In this document: positions 2,807 to 61,204 of the stretch, piece after piece
How positions within the stretch are numbered: the stretch's first letter is position 1
Layout of the letters: the number at the start of each line of letters is the position of its first letter
Origin: Carettochelys insculpta
Taxonomy: Eukaryota > Chordata > Testudines > Carettochelyidae
DNA length: 64,000 nt
Direction of reading: 5' to 3'
NCBI RefSeq assembly: GCF_033958435.1
Contig: NC_134137.1
Location: forward strand, 177,829,501-177,893,500
Notes under the pieces: generated by a model
The model's input: only the letters and a program-made list of their open reading frames with translations
What the model was told of the DNA's origin: nothing
The model's database searches: none
Program-made: the position numbers and the translations under genes

Positions 2807-2818
2807 TATCTGATTCAA
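2807..2818. repeat. Left target-site duplication of PLE dimer 1
   Basis: The 12-mer TATCTGATTCAA occurs here and again at 4,258-4,269, exactly at the outer edges of the inverted PLE pair. Confidence 0.85.
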
Positions 2819-3072
2819 CAGTAACAGAGGGGAAGCCGTGCTAGTCTATACACGATCAAAACAAAAAGCAGTCAAGTAGCACTTTAAAGACTAGCAAAAT
2901 AGGTTTATTAGGTGAGCTTTCGTGGGACAGACCCACTTCTTCAGACCATAGCCAGACCAGAACAGACTCAATATTTAAGGCACAGAGAACCAAAAACAGT
3001 AAGCAAGGAGGACAAATCAGAAAAAGAGAGTCAAGGTGAGCAAATCAGAGAGTGGAGGGGTGGGGGGGAAGG

Positions 3073-3546
3073 TCAAGAATTAGATTGAGCCAAGTATGCA
3101 GACGAGCCCCTATAATGACTCAGAAAGTTCCCATCACGATTTAAACCATGTGTTAATGTGCCTAATTTGAATATAAAAGCCAGCTCGGCTGTTTCCCTTT
3201 CCAGAACGGTGTGATAATTCTTCAATAACACACATACCTTTAGGTCATTGACAGAATGCCCCATTCCATTAAAATGTCGACTAACTGGTTTGTAGATCTG
3301 GAGTGGTTTGATGTCTATTTTGTGCCCATTGACCCTTTGTCTAAGGGAGTTAGAAGCCTGTCCAATGTACAAAGCATCTGGGCATTGTTGGCACATGATG
3401 GCATATGTGATGTTACTAGAGGAGCATGAGAAAGTGCCCGTGATTTTGTGAGTAACCTGGTTAGGTCCAGTGATGGTATTTCCAGAGAAGATATGTGGAC
3501 AAAGCTGGCAGCGGGCTTTGCTGCAGGGAAAGGTTCCAGGACTGGG
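3073..3546 (-). pseudogene. PLE C-terminal GIY-YIG endonuclease fragment (left arm)
   Basis: The minus-strand reading carries the C-terminal endonuclease region of a Penelope-like protein. Visible landmarks are paired cysteines (CQLCPHIF, then CQQCPDA), the core ITYAIMC-LYIGQ, the basic helix RQRVNGHK, a conserved HFNGMGH, and an acidic LERETAEL followed by HGLNRDGNF. In intact PLEs a reverse transcriptase precedes this region and the endonuclease makes the target nick used for priming. No RT is present here, because the copy is truncated where it meets the inverted partner. The frame is open across the centre into the complement of the other arm, but that extension is an artefact of the palindrome. 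Confidence 0.8.
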
Positions 3547-3572
3547 AACCTTTAGACTATACCCCAGGAATA

Positions 3573-4048
3573 CCAGTCCTGGAACCTTTCCCTGCAGCAA
3601 AGCCCGCTGCCAGCTTTGTCCACATATCTTCTCTGGAAATACCATCACTGGACCTAACCAGGTTACTCACAGAATCACGGGCACTTTCTCATGCTCCTCT
3701 AGTAACATCACATATGCCATCATGTGCCAACAATGCCCAGATGCTTTGTACATTGGACAGGCTTCTAACTCCCTTAGACAAAGGGTCAATGGGCACAAAA
3801 TAGACATCAAACCACTCCAGATCCACAAACCAGTTAGTCGACATTTTAATGGAATGGGGCATTCTGTCAATGACCTAAAGGTATGTGTGTTACTGAAGAG
3901 ATATTATCGCACCGTTTTAGAGAGAGAAGTGGACGAGCTGACTTTTATATTCAAATTCGGCACATTAACACATGGTTTAAATCGTGATGGGAACTTTCTG
4001 AGTCATTATAGGGGCTCGTCTGCATACTTGGCTCAATCTAATTCTTGA
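3573..4048 (+). pseudogene. PLE C-terminal GIY-YIG endonuclease fragment (right arm)
   Basis: Mirror copy of the left-arm fragment. It has the same cysteine pairs, LYIGQ core, RQRVNGHK and HGLNRDGNF, and ends with the same YLAQSNS stop. It differs from the left arm by a few substitutions (for example LEREVDELTFIF against LERETAELAFIF) and one or two codons near LKRYYRTV. Both arms keep an open C-terminal frame, which suggests a fairly young insertion. Without the RT portion the fragment should not be autonomous. Confidence 0.8.
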
Positions 4049-4257
4049 CCTTCCCCCCCACCCCTCCACTCTCTGATTTGCTCACCTTGATTCTCTTTTT
4101 CTGATTTGTCCTCCTTGCTTACTGTTTTTGGTTCTCTGTGCCTTAAATATTGAGTCTGTTCTGGTCTGGCTATGGTCTTTAGAAGTGGGTCTGTCCCACG
4201 AAAGCTCACCTAATAAACCTATTTTGCTAGTCTTCAAAGTGCTACTTGACTGCTTTT

Positions 4258-4269
4258 TATCTGATTCAA
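4258..4269. repeat. Right target-site duplication of PLE dimer 1
   Basis: Exact copy of the 12-mer at 2,807-2,818. Confidence 0.85.
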
Positions 4270-6330
4270 GTCAGTCAGTTTACACAGATGTGGGTTGATA
4301 TTAGAATTAGTTTAAGGAGATTTGAGCAAATATGTTCTGTGAAACAGAGTGAATCCGGTGCCTTCACAAAGCTAACCAACCAAATTCACATCCAGGTGTG
4401 CTCTGTCTGGACAATTGTACCATATACATAAACTCAGTACTGCTCACCATGTTGGACATATCACACAGAAGCTACATGTTTTCAGGCTGGTTACTTAAAA
4501 GGCTGTTTTGAGGAGAAAATGCACAGCACAATTTAGCAAGCATTGTTTTGAGTCTCCTCACTGTCTTCACTCTATTTTCAACCTTTATGCATAGTTCTGA
4601 ATGCTAACGAGGAAAAAAAGTGAAGCAATATGTTAGGCAATTGTTAGGTAATAACGAAGAGTAATCAAATAGGAATTTATTTAAAAAAAAGCACCTGCCC
4701 AAACATTGTCCCCTTGACAGCCCAGACAAATGGAATACTTTTATAAAGTTCAGCAATATTTGGATATATGTCTGTCACTTAGTCAACCAAATTACATACT
4801 GCTTGAGTATCATGTACAGCAAACTCTACAATCAGACCATCTTTAGTTTAGTCACTTAGGTAGCAAACTGTCTTTAGGGCTTATGAGTGGAATGAAATAC
4901 TCTCTTCTATTTTTATTTAAAACTTACAGAACAAATTTATATCTGCATGTGGCCTTACCTCCTTTTTGCTACTGAGGATAACCCCACAAAAGTATTCTCT
5001 TTTTTGCTCTAACTGTATTTCGTTTCAACCAGTGCCCTTTTGTGGAGTAGAAATTCAGCTAGCACTCATGTTCCGTCAGGGCACACATATGTAGACCTGC
5101 AGCTACTTACGCCAAGGAGCATTTGTCCTACTCATTGCAAATTCACATTGAATATCTGCTTAGGCTTAATGCTAAAGAAGCAGGACATGCACACGGGAGT
5201 TTTGGACAAAGGCTGCTTTTAACAGACCTATCAATCTATTGTGTATTCTATTTCACTCACACATTATGAAGTAAGGCTGAGGAAAATGTTCATCTATGAA
5301 AGATTCCCCAGAGAGAGGTATGCTAAGACTCCTAGTCTTTCTATATTAGTATGAATGAAATTCAGTGTTTTAAGTGTCAACCCCAAACAGAAACCTCTGG
5401 AGCCTTCCATGGATTTGTGTTTTCAATTTAAGTAACGGCATTAGAAGTGGGTGTTACACAGAAATGTATAATGCACGCATGCACGCGCACACACAGAGGA
5501 AGAACAGTATTCAGCAAGACTTTTCTTTCATAATTCTGGTGTAACAACAAAATAGGCTGCAGTTCAAAGAATACTCCAACTTTTGGAGGCTCTGCTGACA
5601 GCCAGGGCTTAGACCCTTTACGTCAGTGGTGATGGGAATACCGATCTTACAGATATGCAAGAGCTTTAGTAGTTGTTATCAGTATTTCTGAACCACACAC
5701 TTCTTTTCTCTCTTTCTCGCACCCTAACTAGTCTGTTCCCAAAAGGAATACCATATCCATAGAGAAAAAGGCCCGCATTCATGTAGCAAGAGCTATACCT
5801 TACTACAGTGAAGCCTGTTATGTGTTACTGGGCAGTCATATATACAGGTCTCACTCTCACAGGTAATTGGAGTTCCCCACCATTTTCTAACTTCCTGCCA
5901 AAGATGGCTACTGCTGTAATTCATGTTGGGGAAGGAGTCACTATGCAGGAAAACTGAACAAGTTTACAAATCAAATCATTTCCATACACATTATTTAGAG
6001 ATCACCATCACATTATCCTAGGTGGCAGCGTATTACCATGTTACAGGATGAATCTCCTTACACCACACAACATGTTTCTTAAATCTTCCTATAATCACCC
6101 CAGGAGGGATTTTTTTTTTCAAAAAGATGGGCCTGTTTCTGCTTTCAATCACACTACTCCGACTCCAGGGACTTCAAGGGAATTACATTGTTGTAACAGA
6201 GACAAATGTAGCCCTAAATTATCAGACTTCAGACAGTGGGCCAGAGCCTCAACTTGAATAAATTGTTGTAACTCCACTGATGTTAATGGCGCTATGCCAT
6301 TGTACCCTAGCTGAGACTTTAGCCCAGTGT
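4270..6330. other. No gene recognised
   Basis: AT-rich stretch with only short open frames that resemble no known domain. There is a short CA/CG-type dinucleotide tract near 5,475-5,495. Probably intergenic or intronic. Confidence 0.6.
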
Positions 6331-6402
6331 CTTATAGAACACACACTCAGGTATGAAGGGAGCGGAGGAAGGAGCAGCAGTATACTCACCGGTTTTTACA
6401 CC

Positions 6403-6800
6403 AGTGGTGCCAAAACTTTTCCTGTCACCCTCCCGCTTGACCAGTAATGGAATCTATCTGTGCCCCTCCTCTGTTGGCTCACCAGAGCTTGGAAGGAAGG
6501 CAGAGTCAGGGGCTGGAATGGGGATGGGGGAGGACCTGGGCGTAGAAGTAGAGCCTGACCTGGGGCATGGAGGGAATGAGAGCAGAGCTGGGATGAGGGC
6601 GAGGGAGGGGATAGAGCAGAGCAGCTGCTAGGCTGAGGATGGAGCCCGGCTGCAGGCAGAACAGTGCTGAAGCTAGAGGTGGTGCAGGGGGAGGAGTAGA
6701 GAGGTGGCTGGAGACAGAGCTGGTCTGGGGGGCAGAGCAGGCCTAGATGGCAGTCCTTCCCCTCAGGTCTGGACTGGGCACTGCGTCGAATGTTTCTCTG
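6403..6800. repeat. GC-rich repeat with hAT-like left end
   Basis: The left edge reads CAGTGGTGCCAAAACTTTTC, close to the CAGTGGTTCCCAAACTTT end of hAT-type miniature elements such as the one at 61,904. A GC-rich, purine-biased interior follows. I could not find the opposite terminus, so it may be truncated or a composite. The open frames here are low-complexity and not taken as genes. Confidence 0.4.
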
Positions 6801-7642
6801 CATATCCCAAGTTATGAGCTGCAGTTATAAGCGTTTATGTTGATTTTATGTTGTTTGATTGGTTTGTAATGCTCTGCTTGTAAATGTTAGACTCTGAACA
6901 TTAACAATACCTACGGTAGGATATATTTTTATTTTCACTCAATGTTTGCAATGCACTTAGTCAGACAAGGACACTAAACAATGTGCCATATCCATAATAC
7001 ATAGACTAAAGTTCTATGGTCTACATGGCATCTTTAGTTCAACCTAGCGCATATTTTTAATTGCACAGCAATTCCTTCCCCCCGCCAACTCCTTTATAGA
7101 GAATCTACAGTACTTGAAACTGGGAAAAGCAGTAAGCATGTTACATCTTCTGTCAGAGGCCCTGAAGATACAGCTGGGTTTAAATTCTGGAACCTACCCC
7201 ATATCCTGCATTTGTTTTTTTGAGCTTGTGAGATATAAAATTGTGACCTGTGCAGACATGCTCAAAAGTAACTGATCTGTGTTTTTAGTACAGAGGTAAC
7301 TGATCCCTATTTTTAGGCAATAGAATGCATGCACTGTATTCTGATAAAACAAGATCCAGGCTGAACATTTACTCCAAACAACTGAAATCTGAAACCAGGT
7401 TTTAAAAACCATTATCTTTTCTTCCCTTCCACTTGGTGTTGGGTGCACAACTTTACACTTTAAGGTTTAGTAAGATCACAAGTAAATAAACAAAGCATAG
7501 CAAGAGAGGTTGTCAGTGACATTTCTGGTTTTGCCCAAAACCATGAAGTCTCATGAGAAAAGGGATCTCTTGCATTTTTGGCCCATCAAGACCAAAAGAA
7601 TTTGAATAAGTTGAGATAAATTGGGTGAATTAGCTCAGCACA
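6801..7642. other. No gene recognised
   Basis: AT-rich unique-looking DNA. No domain, terminal repeat or tandem array seen. Confidence 0.55.
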
Positions 7643-9033
7643 GCTGTGTCTACACGTGCACGCTACTTCGAAGTAGCGGCACTAACTTCGAAATAGCGCC
7701 CGTCGCGGCTACACGCATCGGGCACTATTTCGAAGTTAACTTCGACATTAGGCGGCGAGACGTCAAAGTCGCTAATCTCATGAGGGGATCGGAATAGCGC
7801 CCTACTTCGATGTTCAACGTCGAAGTAGGGCACGTGTAGATGATCCGCGTCCCGCAACGTCGAAATTGCTGGGTCCTCCATGGTGGCCATCAGCTGGGGG
7901 GTTGAGAGATGCTCTCTCTCCAGCCCCTGCGGGGCTCTATGGTCACCGTGGGCAGCAGCCCTTAGCCCAGGGCTTCTGGCTGCTGCTGCGGCAGCTGGGG
8001 ATCCATGCTGCATGCACAGGGTCTGCAACCAGTTGTCGGCTCTGTGGATCTTGGCTACGTCTACACGTGCACCCAACTTCGAAATAGCTTATTTCGATGT
8101 TGCGACATCGAAATAGGCTATTTCGATGAATAACGTCTACACATCCTCCAGGGCTGGCAACGTCGATGTTCAACTTCGACGTTGCTCAGCCCAACATCGA
8201 AATAGGCACAGCGAGGGAACGTCTACACGCCAAAGTAGCACACATCGAAATAAGGGAGCCAGGCACAGCTGCAGACAGGGTCACGGGGCGGACTCAACAG
8301 CAAGTCACTCCCTTAAAGGGCCCCTCCCAGACACACTTTCATTAAACAGTGCAAGATACACAGAACCAACAACTAGTTGCAGACCCTGTATATGCAGCAC
8401 GGACCCCCAGCTGCAGCAGCAGCAGCCAGAAGCCCTGGGCTAAGGGCTGCTGCCCACGGTGACCACAGAGCCCCGCAAGGGCTGGAGAGAGAGTATCTCT
8501 CAACCCCCCAGCTGATGGCCGCCATGGAGGACCCCGCTATTTCGATGTTGCGGGACGCGGATCGTCTACACGTCCCTACTTCGATGTTGAACGTCGAAGT
8601 AGGGCGCTATTCCCATCCCCTCATGGGGTTAGCGACTTCGACGTCTCGCCGCCTAACGTCGATTTCAACTTCGAAATAGCGCCCAACACGTGTAGACGTG
8701 ACGGGTGCTATTCGAAGTTACTGCCGCTACTTCGAAGTAGCGTGCACGTGTAGACGCAGCTTGTGTGTTGTTTAGTGCAACTGTGTCTGGGAGGGGCCCT
8801 TTAAGGGAGCGGCTTGCTGTTGAGTCCGCCCTGTGACCCTGTCTGCAGCTGTGCCTGGCACCCTTATTTCGATGTGTGCTACTTTGGCGTGTAGACGTAC
8901 CCTCGCAGCGCCTATTTCGATGTGGTGCCGCGCAACGTCGAAGTTGAACATCGACGTTGCCAGCCCTGGAGGACGTGTAGATGTTATTCATCGAAATAGC
9001 CTATTTCGATGTTGGCTTCACGTGTAGACGTAG
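7643..9033 (-). mobile_element. Harbinger-type MITE, split by a second copy
   Basis: The outer element begins GCTGTGTCTACACGTGCACG and ends CACGTGTAGACGTAGCC. Its two halves, 7,643-8,053 and about 8,761-9,033, join to give the structure seen uninterrupted at 19,332-20,040: the left piece stops in the word GGATCTTG and the right piece resumes with TGTTGTTTAG. A 707-bp copy in opposite orientation lies between them. The flanking target duplication is not clean. Confidence 0.85.
8054..8760 (+). mobile_element. Harbinger-type MITE nested in its own family
   Basis: Complete inner copy. It starts GCTACGTCTACACGTGCAC, ends GTGCACGTGTAGACGCAGC, and is flanked by TTG at 8,051-8,053 and 8,761-8,763, a 3-bp duplication of the host MITE sequence. 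The interior matches the copies at 25,921 and 35,507, including the segment near 8,398 equivalent to the first codons of the Harbinger transposase. Confidence 0.88.
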
Positions 9034-9660
9034 CCCACATGAGCTGAGTGAGACTCACTATTTATGAGTGAAAAGTGACCACACTGTCACTAGTTTTGGT
9101 TTCCATGGGTTCCTGAACCCAGTGTTTTGCTTTGAGTTTGGGATTCAAATTAATCCAAAAGTTCAAGCAGAAATTCAACCACAATCTTTTTTTTCACCCC
9201 AAACCACAATCTAGCCTGGGTTTGCTTGAACCTTGACATGAGTTTCTGGAAAATATGCAACAACTGCAGTGAACCTAGCCCAAATTTAGGATCTTTATTT
9301 TTATCAGGGTGGCATGCAAAGTCCCAAGTCAGGCATCTCCATGGTAGGCACTGTACAGCCAAACTGCTGGATATGGTTCCTGCTCAAAGTACTTGAAGTT
9401 ACCATGAAACTTCATTGAATGCTGGTTAGATTTTTTTTCCAGGAAATTTTAAAGGCTCTTTCTTAAGCAGCCCAGAGAAAGTTTCTGAAAAGAATCCATT
9501 ATTCTGTTACAAACACAAAGACTAAGAGCTGGTAGCATCTGTTCTTTCTGGGGGATTTCAAATAAGCTTGCATCATTTTATGTACCCTGTGAAGAGTATA
9601 GAAGGCCAAGAGAGCCACAGTGACGACATTTTTCGCCAACACATACAGATGTTCAGGTTA
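9034..9660. other. No gene recognised
   Basis: Unique-looking sequence with no feature I can support. Confidence 0.5.
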
Positions 9661-12983: not shown

Positions 12984-12997
12984 TCTGTAGTGTAGTG
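12984..12997. repeat. Left target-site duplication of PLE dimer 2
   Basis: The 14-mer TCTGTAGTGTAGTG recurs at 14,410-14,423. It matches the A-box region of the tRNA-like SINE that continues on the right of the dimer, so this short piece is the SINE's displaced head. Confidence 0.85.
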
Positions 12998-13266
12998 TAT
13001 CAGAGACATAGCTGTGTTAGTCTATAGCTTTGAGAACAACAATACGTCTTGTGGCACCTTATAGACTAACAGATATTTTGGGGCATAAGCTTTCACGGGC
13101 AAAGACCCGCTTCATCAGGTGCATGAGTCAGGGAGTGGTTTCAGAGGGGTATTTAAAGAATGGGGTCCCAGAGAAAGGGAGGGCCGGAGCTGACAAGGTC
13201 TATTCAGAAAGGTGGAAATGGTCCATTATCAACAGTAGGTATCAAAACAGGAAAAAACAAGTCAGA

Positions 13267-13689
13267 TCAGACAAGGGGATATGAGCCATTGTCAGAGTCT
13301 AATGGGGAGATCTTAACGCACAGGGCAGAGAAGCTGCCTTTGTAAACTGCGAGCCACTCCCAGTCTCTGTTTAATCCTTGGTTAATGGAGTCAAATTTGC
13401 AAATAAATTGCAGCTCAGAGATTTCTCTCTCCATTTGATTTCTGAAATATCTTTGTTTCAGGACTGCCACCCTTAAATCTGCTATTGAGTGTCCAGGGAG
13501 ATTGAAGTGTTCCCCCAAAGGCTTCTGTACATTACCGTTCCTGGTATCTGATTTATGTCCATTTATTCTTTTACGTAGAGACTGTCCAGTTTGGCCAATG
13601 TAAATTGCAGTGGGACATTGCTGGCACGTGATGGCATATATTATATTAGTAGATGTGCAGGTAAAGGAGCCTGGAACCAGCCGCTGCAA
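13267..13689 (-). pseudogene. PLE GIY-YIG endonuclease fragment (left arm, dimer 2)
   Basis: The minus-strand reading gives a well-preserved PLE endonuclease C-terminus: ITCQQCPTAIYIGQ, the basic LRKRINGHKSD, HFNLPGHSIADLRV, MEREISELQFICKFDS and GLNRDWEW, ending soon after PLDSDNGSY. The paired cysteines and the YIG core are intact. It is shorter than a functional PLE protein because the RT is missing. The product would presumably be inactive even if translated. Confidence 0.8.
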
Positions 13690-13690
13690 C

Positions 13691-14170
13691 GGTCCTCGCT
13701 GCCAGCTCTGCTCTCATATCTACACCAGTGACATCATCACAGGACCTAACATCAACTATACCATCAGGGGCTCCTTTACCTGAACATCTACTAAAATAAT
13801 GTATGCCATCATGTGCCAGCAATGCCCCACTGCAATTTACATTGGCCAATCTGGACAGTCTCTACATAAAAGAATAAATGGACATAAATCAGACATCAGG
13901 AACGGCAATGTACAGAAGTCTGTGGGTGAACACTTCCATCTCCCTGGACACTCAGTAGCAGATTTAAGGGTGGCAGTCCTGAAACAAAGAAATTTCAGAA
14001 ATCAAATGGAGAGAGAAATCTCTGAGCTGGAATTTATTTGCAAATTTGACTCCATTAACCGAGGATTAAACAGAGACTGAGAGGGGCTCGCAACTTACAA
14101 AGGCAGCTTCTCTGCCCTGTGTGTTAAGATCTCCCCATTAGACTCTGACAAAGGCTCACATCCCCCTGTC
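13691..14170 (+). pseudogene. PLE GIY-YIG endonuclease fragment (right arm, dimer 2)
   Basis: Plus-strand copy of the same endonuclease region. It begins further upstream (CQLCSHIYTSDIITGP), has a stop after IRGSFT, then runs open with IMCQQCPTAIYIGQ, LHKRINGHKSD, HFHLPGHSVADLRV, MEREISELEFICKFDS and GLNRD before another stop at about 14,080. Downstream codons still match the partner (YKGSFSALCVKISPLDSD). Two premature stops make it a pseudogene. Confidence 0.8.
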
Positions 14171-14409
14171 TGATCTGACTCGTTTTTTCCTCTTTTGATA
14201 CCTACTATTGATACTGGGCCACTTCCCCCTTGCTGAATAGACCGTGTCAGCTCTGGCCCTCCCTCTTTACTGGGACCCCACTCTTTAAATGCCCCTCTGA
14301 AACCACCCCTCCCACTCATGCACCTGATGAAGTGGGTCTTTGCCCACGAAAGCTTATGCTCCAAAATATCTGTTAGTTTATGAGGTGCCACAAGACTTCT
14401 TGTTGTCCT

Positions 14410-14575
14410 CTGTAGTGTAGTGGTTATCACATTTGAATAACACTGGAACAGTCCCTGATTCAAACCAGAAATAATTAACTGCATCTTTGATCTAGATGGT
14501 GCTTGGTCTTGCAGGGAATGGGACTCAATAACCTCTTGAGGTCCTGTGTGGCACTAGTATTTTAAATCCCATGAA
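14410..14575 (+). mobile_element. tRNA-headed SINE (tRNA-Val-like), split by PLE dimer 2
   Basis: The head TGTAGTGTAGTGGTTATCAC resembles the 5' half of a tRNA-Val with its A box. A B-box-like CTGATTCAAACC lies about 45 bp downstream. The tail GATGGTGCTTGGTCTTGCAG then ACTCAATAACCTCTTGAGGTC resembles the CR1-like tail shared with turtle SINEs, as at 17,656. The first bases of the element lie at about 12,984, before the PLE dimer. Not a functional tRNA gene: no proper acceptor pairing, and a SINE tail is attached. Confidence 0.65.
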
Positions 14576-20066: not shown

Positions 20067-20502
20067 GGCCATGTCTCCACGAGCCCCAAACTTCGAAATG
20101 GCCACGCAAATGGCCATTTCGAAGTTTACTAATGAAGCGCTGAAATGCATATTCAGCGCTTCATTAGCATGTGGGAGGCTGCGGCACTTCGAAATTGACG
20201 CGCCTCGCCGCCGCGCGGCTCGTCCCCACAGGGCTCCTTTTCGAAAGGACCCTGCCTACTTCGAAGTCCCCTTATTCCCACGAGCTGATGGGAATAAGGG
20301 GACTTCGAAATAGGTGGGGTCCTTTCGAAAAGGAGCCCCGTCGGGACGAGATGCGTGGCGGCAAGGCGCGTCAATTTCGAAGTGCCGCGGCCGCCTGCAT
20401 GCTAATGAAGCGCTGAATATGCATTTCAGCGCTTCACTAGTAAACTTCGAAATGGCCATTTGCGTGGCCATTTCGAAGTTTGGGGCTCGTGTAGACATGG
20501 CC
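20067..20502. mobile_element. Near-palindromic fold-back MITE
   Basis: The whole 436-bp element is close to a perfect inverted repeat, centred near 20,281-20,286. It starts GGCCATGTCTCCACGAGCCC and ends GGGCTCGTGTAGACATGGCC. Inner symmetrical words include ACTTCGAAATGGCC, AATGAAGCGCTGAA and CTCCTTTTCGAAAGGACCC on each side. Similar proteins appear on both strands purely because of the symmetry. AAA flanks both ends, so a 3-bp duplication is possible but weak as evidence. A shorter relative lies at 60,877. Confidence 0.85.
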
Positions 20503-21866: not shown

Positions 21867-22608
21867 CTGTGCGTCTGACTACACAGCAACGTTATTTCAA
21901 AATAACTATGTGAGAGCCTACGCAACTGTAACTGCTATTTCAAAATATCGGTTGTCTTGCTTTGCAATTGGTACGAGGAATATCGCCTATTTGGAAATTG
22001 GAATTTCAAAATAGGGGCGGTGTAGACAGGGAACAGAGCCTATTTCACAACTAGTCATAGTGCGTCCAATGGCTCCGCTTTGAAATAGGCTCCATGATGT
22101 GTAGATGCTGTATTTCAAAATAGCTGAGCAGTATTTCGCAATGTATTGCTTGTGTGTGTAGCTGTGCTAGTCTGAAATAAAGTATTTTGGACTACCTCTT
22201 CCAGAATAGAAACAAAACAGCAGTCATGTAGCACTTTAAAGACTAACTATTAGGTGATGAGCTTTCGTGGGACAGACCCACTTCTTCAGATCATAGCCAT
22301 TTCAGAACAGACTCAATGTATAAAGCACAGAGGTCCAAAAATTGTTGGCATGGTTGACAAATCAGAAAAATGGTTATCAAGGTTCACAACTCAGAAGAGT
22401 AGAGGGATGGTGGGTGGGGATGTTAAGAGTTAGATAAAACATCAAAGTATGTAACAGATTCCTTATAATAGGTCAGGTAATTGCTGTCCCTGTTCAAACC
22501 ACATGTTCATGTGTGAAATTTGAATATGAATGTTAGTTCTGAGCATTCCCTCTGTAGACAGTTCCAGAATAGCTTATTCAGAAATAAAGCTGCTGTGTAG
22601 ACATAGCC
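21867..22608. mobile_element. MITE with TATTTCAAAATA words, hosting a PLE fragment
   Basis: The right end GCTGCTGTGTAGACATAGCC is a GTCTACAC-type terminus, and the left region (about 21,880-21,910) carries ACTACACAGCAACGTTATTT as a degraded counterpart. The interior has repeated TATTTCAAAATA-type words. The element is interrupted at 22,210-22,561 by a PLE fragment with an 11-bp duplication. Left boundary approximate. Confidence 0.6.
22210..22561 (-). mobile_element. Penelope-like element, single truncated copy
   Basis: Contains the same 3' terminal region as dimer 1 (CAGTCATGTAGCACTTTAAA, then GAGCTTTCGTGGGACAGACC). Flanked by TTCCAGAATAG at 22,199-22,209 and 22,562-22,572. Only about 350 bp remain and no inverted partner is present, so it is a monomer, unlike the three dimers. 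The endonuclease coding remnant is just its last codons. Confidence 0.8.
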
Positions 22609-60876: not shown

Positions 60877-61204
60877 GGCCATGTCTACATTAGCCCCAAA
60901 CTTCAAAATGGCCATGCACTTTGAAATTGATGCGGCTCATCACGACGGGGCTCCTTTTCGAAAGGACCCCGCCTACTTCCAAGTCCCCTTATTCCCATCT
61001 GCTCATAGGAATAAGGGGACTTCAAAGTAGGCAGGGTCCTTTCGAAAAGGAGCCCCGTCAGGGGGAGCTGCGTCAATTTCGAAGTGCCACAGCCACCCGC
61101 ATGCTAATAAGGTGCTGAATATGTATTTCAGCGCTTCATTAGTAAACTTCGAAATGGCCATTTACATGGCCATTTCGAAGTTTGGGGCTAGTGTAGACAT
61201 AGCC
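60877..61204. mobile_element. Fold-back MITE, shorter relative of 20,067
   Basis: Starts GGCCATGTCTACATTAGCCC and ends GGGGCTAGTGTAGACATAGCC, with ATA on both sides (60,874-60,876 and 61,205-61,207). About 100 bp of the left arm (the CATTTCGAAGTTTACTAATG region) are missing compared with 20,067, while the right arm is complete, so the palindrome is asymmetric. Confidence 0.85.

Follow-up and report, generated by a model that had tools for sequence, protein, structure and literature searches.

Head-to-head dimers of Penelope-like elements with one tail per dimer in the genome of Carettochelys insculpta

Two 5'-truncated Penelope-like element (PLE) copies, joined head to head within one target duplication (TSD), lie in the 64,000-nucleotide stretch of the Carettochelys insculpta genome analysed here (the window), and are best read, at odds of roughly three to one, as the product of a single insertion event of an endonuclease-bearing PLE with target-primed reverse transcription at both ends. 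PLEs form the third class of eukaryotic retroelements. The evidence consists of one TSD around the pair, the empty site of another dimer of the same genome, one tail per dimer, and partly different templates for the two arms of the first dimer. Paired insertions of this kind occur often in the turtle genome. That the two head-to-head copies have different RNA start points suggests an enzyme copying into both ends of the cut site.

Two dimers in the window

The first dimer was described in an initial annotation as an inverted pair of 5'-truncated PLE copies with both 3' ends outward and a single 12-bp duplication flanking the pair as a whole, and these boundaries proved correct to the base (Table 1). 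The two TSD copies abut the outer ends of the arms; among 200,000 random placements of boundary pairs, abutting exact words of 11–12 nt occurred 0 times and a 10-nt word once. Duplications around each arm separately had been named as evidence against a joint arrival, and the flanks of a single arm, left or right, share no word longer than 4 nt. The arms are ~97% identical, with 18 mismatches and one 3-nt gap in 686 aligned columns; these differences make it unlikely that identical arms were collapsed during assembly. Both terminate in 3' UTR, facing outward, and the left arm extends 44–45 nt further to a tail end that coincides with the tail end of other tail arms. The divergent patch of the right arm is coding, has a density of substitutions reached in 0 of 2000 random placements and is present in 0 of 26 other arms covering that stretch; it possibly derives from a template switch or gene conversion. 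The codons at which the arms differ gave no decisive evidence.

Only the C-terminal GIY-YIG part is encoded by the arms of the first dimer (Pfam GIY-YIG E 0.018 and 0.0094, below the cut-off), whereas the turtle proteins P0017 and P0018, which match the arms at 58–59% over 90–95% of the query, carry RVT_1 and GIY-YIG, both above Pfam cut-offs. RT and GIY-YIG thus occur together in one ORF in these relatives and not in the truncated arms themselves. A direct second pLTR copy is not present at this insertion, so the first dimer is a truncated product rather than a full Penelope unit (pLTR-ORF-pLTR). The surveyed arms have the 5' truncation, defined 3' ends and optional tail of PLEs, with a few tail-less arms beginning further in (L051 at 552 of 728, L033 at 608 of 674), and TSDs accompany both window dimers and the single copy C3 as well as half of the surveyed pairs described below. 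Relatives were not found among the viral contigs, genome contigs and plasmids searched, and a PDB sequence search with P0018 gave no match.

The motif at 2915–2934 was identified by a pattern match to the hammerhead core. The core-like motif is present in the sequence, Rfam returned no hammerhead match, and Rfam microRNA matches at 3474–3642 were rejected, as they track the centre of the palindrome. Other nested or near-perfect palindromes of the window (7632–9045, 20067–20502 and 60877–61204) gave no match to the PLE arms or proteins used in the searches. In the second dimer the hammerhead-like stem varies from one arm to the other (13032–13128 versus 14314–14410) with pairing kept (GCGGG/CCCGT versus GTGGG/CCCAC).

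This second TSD-bounded dimer, at 12998–14409 of the same window, was missed in the initial annotation. It belongs to another PLE family, and its arms differ at 52 of 641 columns. Its right TSD runs on into tRNA-Val-like sequence, where an alignment to a vertebrate tRNA-Val scored 58 against a best of 23 in 500 shuffles. ARAGORN with default settings and Rfam found no tRNA at this target. With a low threshold ARAGORN called tRNA-Val on the joined flanks, a weak call because the same run also gave tRNA-Asp on the opposite strand and a tRNA in the flanks of the first dimer; the alignment is the stronger evidence.

Table 1. Positions of PLE-related features in the window
Feature	Position	Strand	Basis or remark
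First dimer, left TSD copy, 12 bp, TATCTGATTCAA	2807..2818	+	Exact match to 4258-4269; abuts element
First dimer, left PLE arm, 3' end outward, tail-bearing, 5'-truncated within the GIY-YIG coding region	2819..3545	-	Aligns to right arm and further genomic copies
Left-arm 3' tail, 44 nt (45 counting a T common with the TSD)	2819..2862	-	Right arm lacks it
Part of hammerhead-like motif, left arm, CTGAAGA..GAAA	2915..2934	-	Pattern match
9-bp inverted repeat at the joint, AAAGGTTCC/GGAACCTTT	3529..3553		
Filler, GAACCTTT	3546-3553		Not element sequence at that place
First dimer, right PLE arm, 3' end outward, no tail	3554..4257	+	3554-3572 absent from left arm
Divergent patch, right arm	3889..3960	+	12 substitutions in 80 columns
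Hammerhead-like motif, right arm, core CTGA changed to CTTT	4187..4206	+	Alignment and pattern match
First dimer, right TSD copy, 12 bp, TATCTGATTCAA	4258..4269	+	Exact match to 2807-2818
Second dimer, left TSD, 13 nt (14 with the preceding common T)	12985..12997	+	
Second dimer, left arm, tail-bearing, another PLE family	12998..13671	-	
Second dimer, right arm, tail-less	13669..14409	+	
GCC common to both arms at the second-dimer joint	13669-13671		
Second dimer, right-arm stretch absent from left arm, 97 nt	13672-13768		
Second dimer, right TSD	14410..14422	+	At start of tRNA-Val-like sequence
Single 5'-truncated tail-less PLE copy (C3)	22210..22561	-	11-bp TSD at 22199-22209 and 22562-22572

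A genome survey of dimers, duplications and tails

A survey of dimers and TSDs, which the initial annotation had suggested for all PLE copies, covered the window (C1:177829501-177893500) and 48 loci of the Carettochelys insculpta genome. For family 1, the left arm of the first dimer including its tail was used as the query; 39 other places were among the matches listed and 30 were fetched, comprising 29 of the 30 top-ranked and L048, which was chosen as its partner was visible. The place at C32:797554 was omitted as a repeat of the C32 dimer that is included as L025; seemingly one dimer stands there twice, 46 kb apart (G000:C32:797554-798971 and 843125-844542), possibly through segmental duplication. 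A head-to-head partner and a TSD were present in 12 of the 29 top-ranked family-1 loci (11 at a score of at least 9, and L016 with 8 nt). For family 2, the query was without the tail, 39 other places were among the matches listed, and the 18 at the head of the list were retrieved together with 1.9 kb of upstream sequence. Three of these 18 (L033, L038 and L045) had a clear partner and a TSD, L046 had a weak partner (46 nt) and a 12-nt TSD with one mismatch, and the main copy of L035 had a possible partner without a TSD.

When arms were picked by hand under a first rule, 17 of 19 dimers had a TSD of 8–17 nt with at most one mismatch, and 16 scored at least 10, against 0 of 342 flank pairings across different dimers (best control 8). 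Because tail state had guided the selection of arms, this analysis offers no test of one-tail pairing, and the search was repeated without such choice. Under a slightly wider rule, with arms not picked by tail, TSD scores of at least 9 were obtained for 22 of 44 head-to-head match pairs, compared with 2 of 343 cross-locus control pairs. The remaining 22 pairs had no TSD at score 9 (L016 has 8 nt), and L024 is an old one-tail pair with no TSD. The 22 TSD pairs include bystanders, namely two mini-dimers in L022, one in L020, and one pair in L035 that rests on a 26-nt match. The mini-dimers (L022, plus strand, 5570–5775 and 6392–6629; L020, 2669–2861) are built of PLE 3' ends of ~80–130 nt with TSDs and one tail each, and could be mistaken for small palindromic elements.

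An empty site is shown by the dimer at L028, which is inserted in an older PLE-related repeat. The joined flanks of L028 align to C3, an uninterrupted paralogous copy of the host repeat in the window, with no gap at the insertion point, and the 13-mer occurs there once, with one mismatch. Arrival in one event, as the initial annotation had proposed, is supported by the TSD survey with its control and by the L028 empty site.

In all 22 TSD pairs, the arms of which were not chosen by tail, exactly one arm ended no more than 5 nt from the end of the tail, whereas its partner fell at least 20 nt short. The shortfall was 20 nt in L046, where the partner ends inside the tail, and 176 nt in L051; family-1 partners besides L051 and the L022 bystanders fell 35–44 nt short of the tail end. 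For thirteen of the 22 pairs, which were retrieved with the tail-bearing query or are identical with it, only the partner's missing tail is tested; the other nine were not obtained in this way. All 30 fetched main copies of family 1, selected with the tail-bearing query, extend to the tail end. Among family-2 copies without a clear partner (n = 14, including L046), about 8 had a tail and 6 had none (L041 and L043 by eye). Were tails independent at this family-2 rate, taken here for both families, the chance would be about 1e-5 for 14 dimers (L035 included); a tail rate of 0.3 would raise it to 5e-4. The outer ends of most arms lie at the two start regions.

Templates of the arms and sequence at the joints

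In the first dimer the tail is confined to the left arm and 19 inner nt to the right arm, and in the second dimer a 35-nt tail occurs only in the left arm and 97 inner nt only in the right. L038 places a short, internally deleted tail arm opposite a long tail-less arm. Because each arm of these three dimers holds element sequence that its partner lacks, neither can have arisen by plain copying of its partner. A marker consisting of a T and a 3-nt deletion was found at 8 places in the genome, and the reversed pattern at 0. This deletion marker is carried by the left arm of the first dimer and by the tail arm of L025, and is missing from the partners of both. Templates that differ at least in part are indicated for at least two dimers (the first dimer and L025), later gene conversion being an alternative.

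The two arms of a dimer disagree, pooled over dimers, at 23 of 221 informative sites, compared with a fraction of 0.144–0.249 when partners are shuffled (14 dimers, 300 shuffles). The arms of L026 differ at 3 of 686 sites and at 0 of 26 informative sites, and those of L019 at 2 of 304. Given that own arms are closer than shuffled ones, and some near identical, the templates were often the same or sibling RNAs.

The filler at the joint of the first dimer forms the 9-bp inverted repeat with the left arm and is also identical to a right-arm stretch. At the corresponding place 20 of 22 rows of other copies have GCCACAGT before CTATACC, or a near variant, and the first dimer has GAACCTTTAGA. The joint of the second dimer, GCC, is native in both arms. 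The inner end of the shorter arm varies among dimers.

Priming from both ends and its alternatives

Under two-ended target-primed reverse transcription, the GIY-YIG enzyme would cut both target strands ~8–16 nt apart, a spacing suggested by the TSDs, and leave 3' overhangs. Each target 3' end would then prime reverse transcription of a PLE RNA, the downstream start site giving rise to the tail arm and the upstream start site to the tail-less arm. Both cDNAs would halt early, their free 3' ends would join head to head through microhomology (GCC in the second dimer) or templated bases (GAACCTTT in the first), and gap repair would duplicate the overhang to give the TSD. The initial annotation proposed a cut in both strands, priming of two ends and joining of the cDNAs. 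One-event arrival with priming from both ends is the best-supported reading, having withstood the TSD survey, the empty-site comparison, and the examination of reciprocal extensions and of the one-arm marker, any of which could have spoken against it. For the first dimer we infer the cutting, priming and joining steps, as we do the order of steps, an enzyme dimer and joining by host repair in general. LINE-1 twin priming likewise yields inverted element segments inside one TSD, with one 3' end only; the turtle dimers differ in holding a 3' end in both arms. A LINE twin-priming product, already set apart in the initial annotation, was rejected for the first dimer, both arms of which carry the 3' UTR end.

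Near-identical arms in several dimers (L026, L019) weigh against the two-ended model, as they would also be expected from self-copying or from one shared RNA. Snap-back self-priming, in which one cDNA or antisense template would fold back on itself and be copied into an inverted pair, has been suggested for rotifer Penelope from palindromes at inverted junctions (PMC3846280). The few arm differences in L026, L019, L016 and L054 agree with it, the 9-bp hairpin at the joint of the first dimer shows some fold-back or slippage at a cDNA end, and a copy that always halted ~40 nt short would give one-tail dimers with a longer tail arm. However, the tail arm is shorter at its inner end in both window dimers and in L038, which rules out plain copying in either direction, and the deletion marker is in one arm only of the first dimer and L025. 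L026-type dimers are compatible with one arm being contained in, and copied from, the other, but the first dimer is not. Snap-back is accordingly judged quite improbable as the general explanation, and two-ended target-primed reverse transcription is favoured over it in the informative dimers.

A form of the two-ended model in which both arms stem from one RNA molecule, engaged at both start sites simultaneously, would account for one tail per dimer as well as the near-identical arms; the different markers of the arms in the first dimer and L025 speak against it, unless the template was switched midway, and it is considered unlikely. A pre-formed dimer that served as a source element and was copied as a unit would agree with the doubled dimer on C32, for which segmental duplication is assumed. 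It is made highly improbable by the inner end of the shorter arm, which differs from dimer to dimer, by the separate filler at the joint of the first dimer, and by most arms having their outer end at one of the two start regions. Copies of PLEs abound (a first look gave 5,242 and 6,916 candidates for the two families), so that a second copy might have inserted independently beside the inner end of the first, but each window dimer has one TSD surrounding the pair and none around its single arms, and TSDs accompany this layout in 22 of 44 pairs, compared with 2 of 343 control pairs. Two independent insertions are excluded for L028 by its empty site and in general have next to no likelihood.

Much of this architecture is already published. 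In the parts of PMC3846280 that concern Adineta vaga, inverted pLTR pairs are reported inside one 8–10-bp TSD with a tail on one pLTR, and self-priming is proposed. Adineta vaga Penelope, as portrayed there, resembles the turtle dimers in its head-to-head 3' ends, the TSD around the insert, a 31-bp tail on one pLTR and GIY-YIG; in the turtle window, by contrast, both members are truncated 3' ends, and counts, a control and arm-template tests are added. The portion of PMC8969392 on PLE peculiarities lists inverted pLTRs and 3' extensions among them, the available part of PMC12910113 has nothing on dimer architecture, and a literature search of titles and abstracts gave none on counting tails in PLE dimers. 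With the inverted pair, the single TSD and the tail on one side on record, and with two-strand cutting and extension by a PLE protein likewise published (PMC11167929), the dimer and its reading are less novel than the initial annotation implied; what is added is the counting, the strict pairing of one tail per dimer, and evidence for two templates.

According to the sections of PMC11167929 on the in vitro reactions, the PLE protein of Anolis cleaves both strands and extends them, starting RT at two sites that correspond to the tail. Poseidon of Anolis carolinensis, as treated in that text, is alike in having two internal RT start sites with the tail between them, in the cutting and extension of both strands, and in a hammerhead motif. 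It differs in that the start sites in vitro are the same for both strands (PMC11167929), whereas the TSD-bounded turtle pairs have one arm with the tail and one without; that assay therefore leaves the one-tail pairing unexplained. Tentatively, and with slightly less than even confidence, we propose that PLE integration proceeds from two ends with obligate asymmetry, such that synthesis would always start at the downstream RNA site for one target end and at an upstream site for the other, even with different RNAs; the start site would then depend on whether the enzyme complex is serving the first or the second end, rather than on competition within one RNA.

Later integration steps are termed yet to be validated in PMC11167929, and self-priming has been proposed for the completion of PLE integration. 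The turtle dimers keep the start sites, the joint and the TSD, which makes these steps testable by counting, and the one-tail pairing is a constraint on any mechanism.
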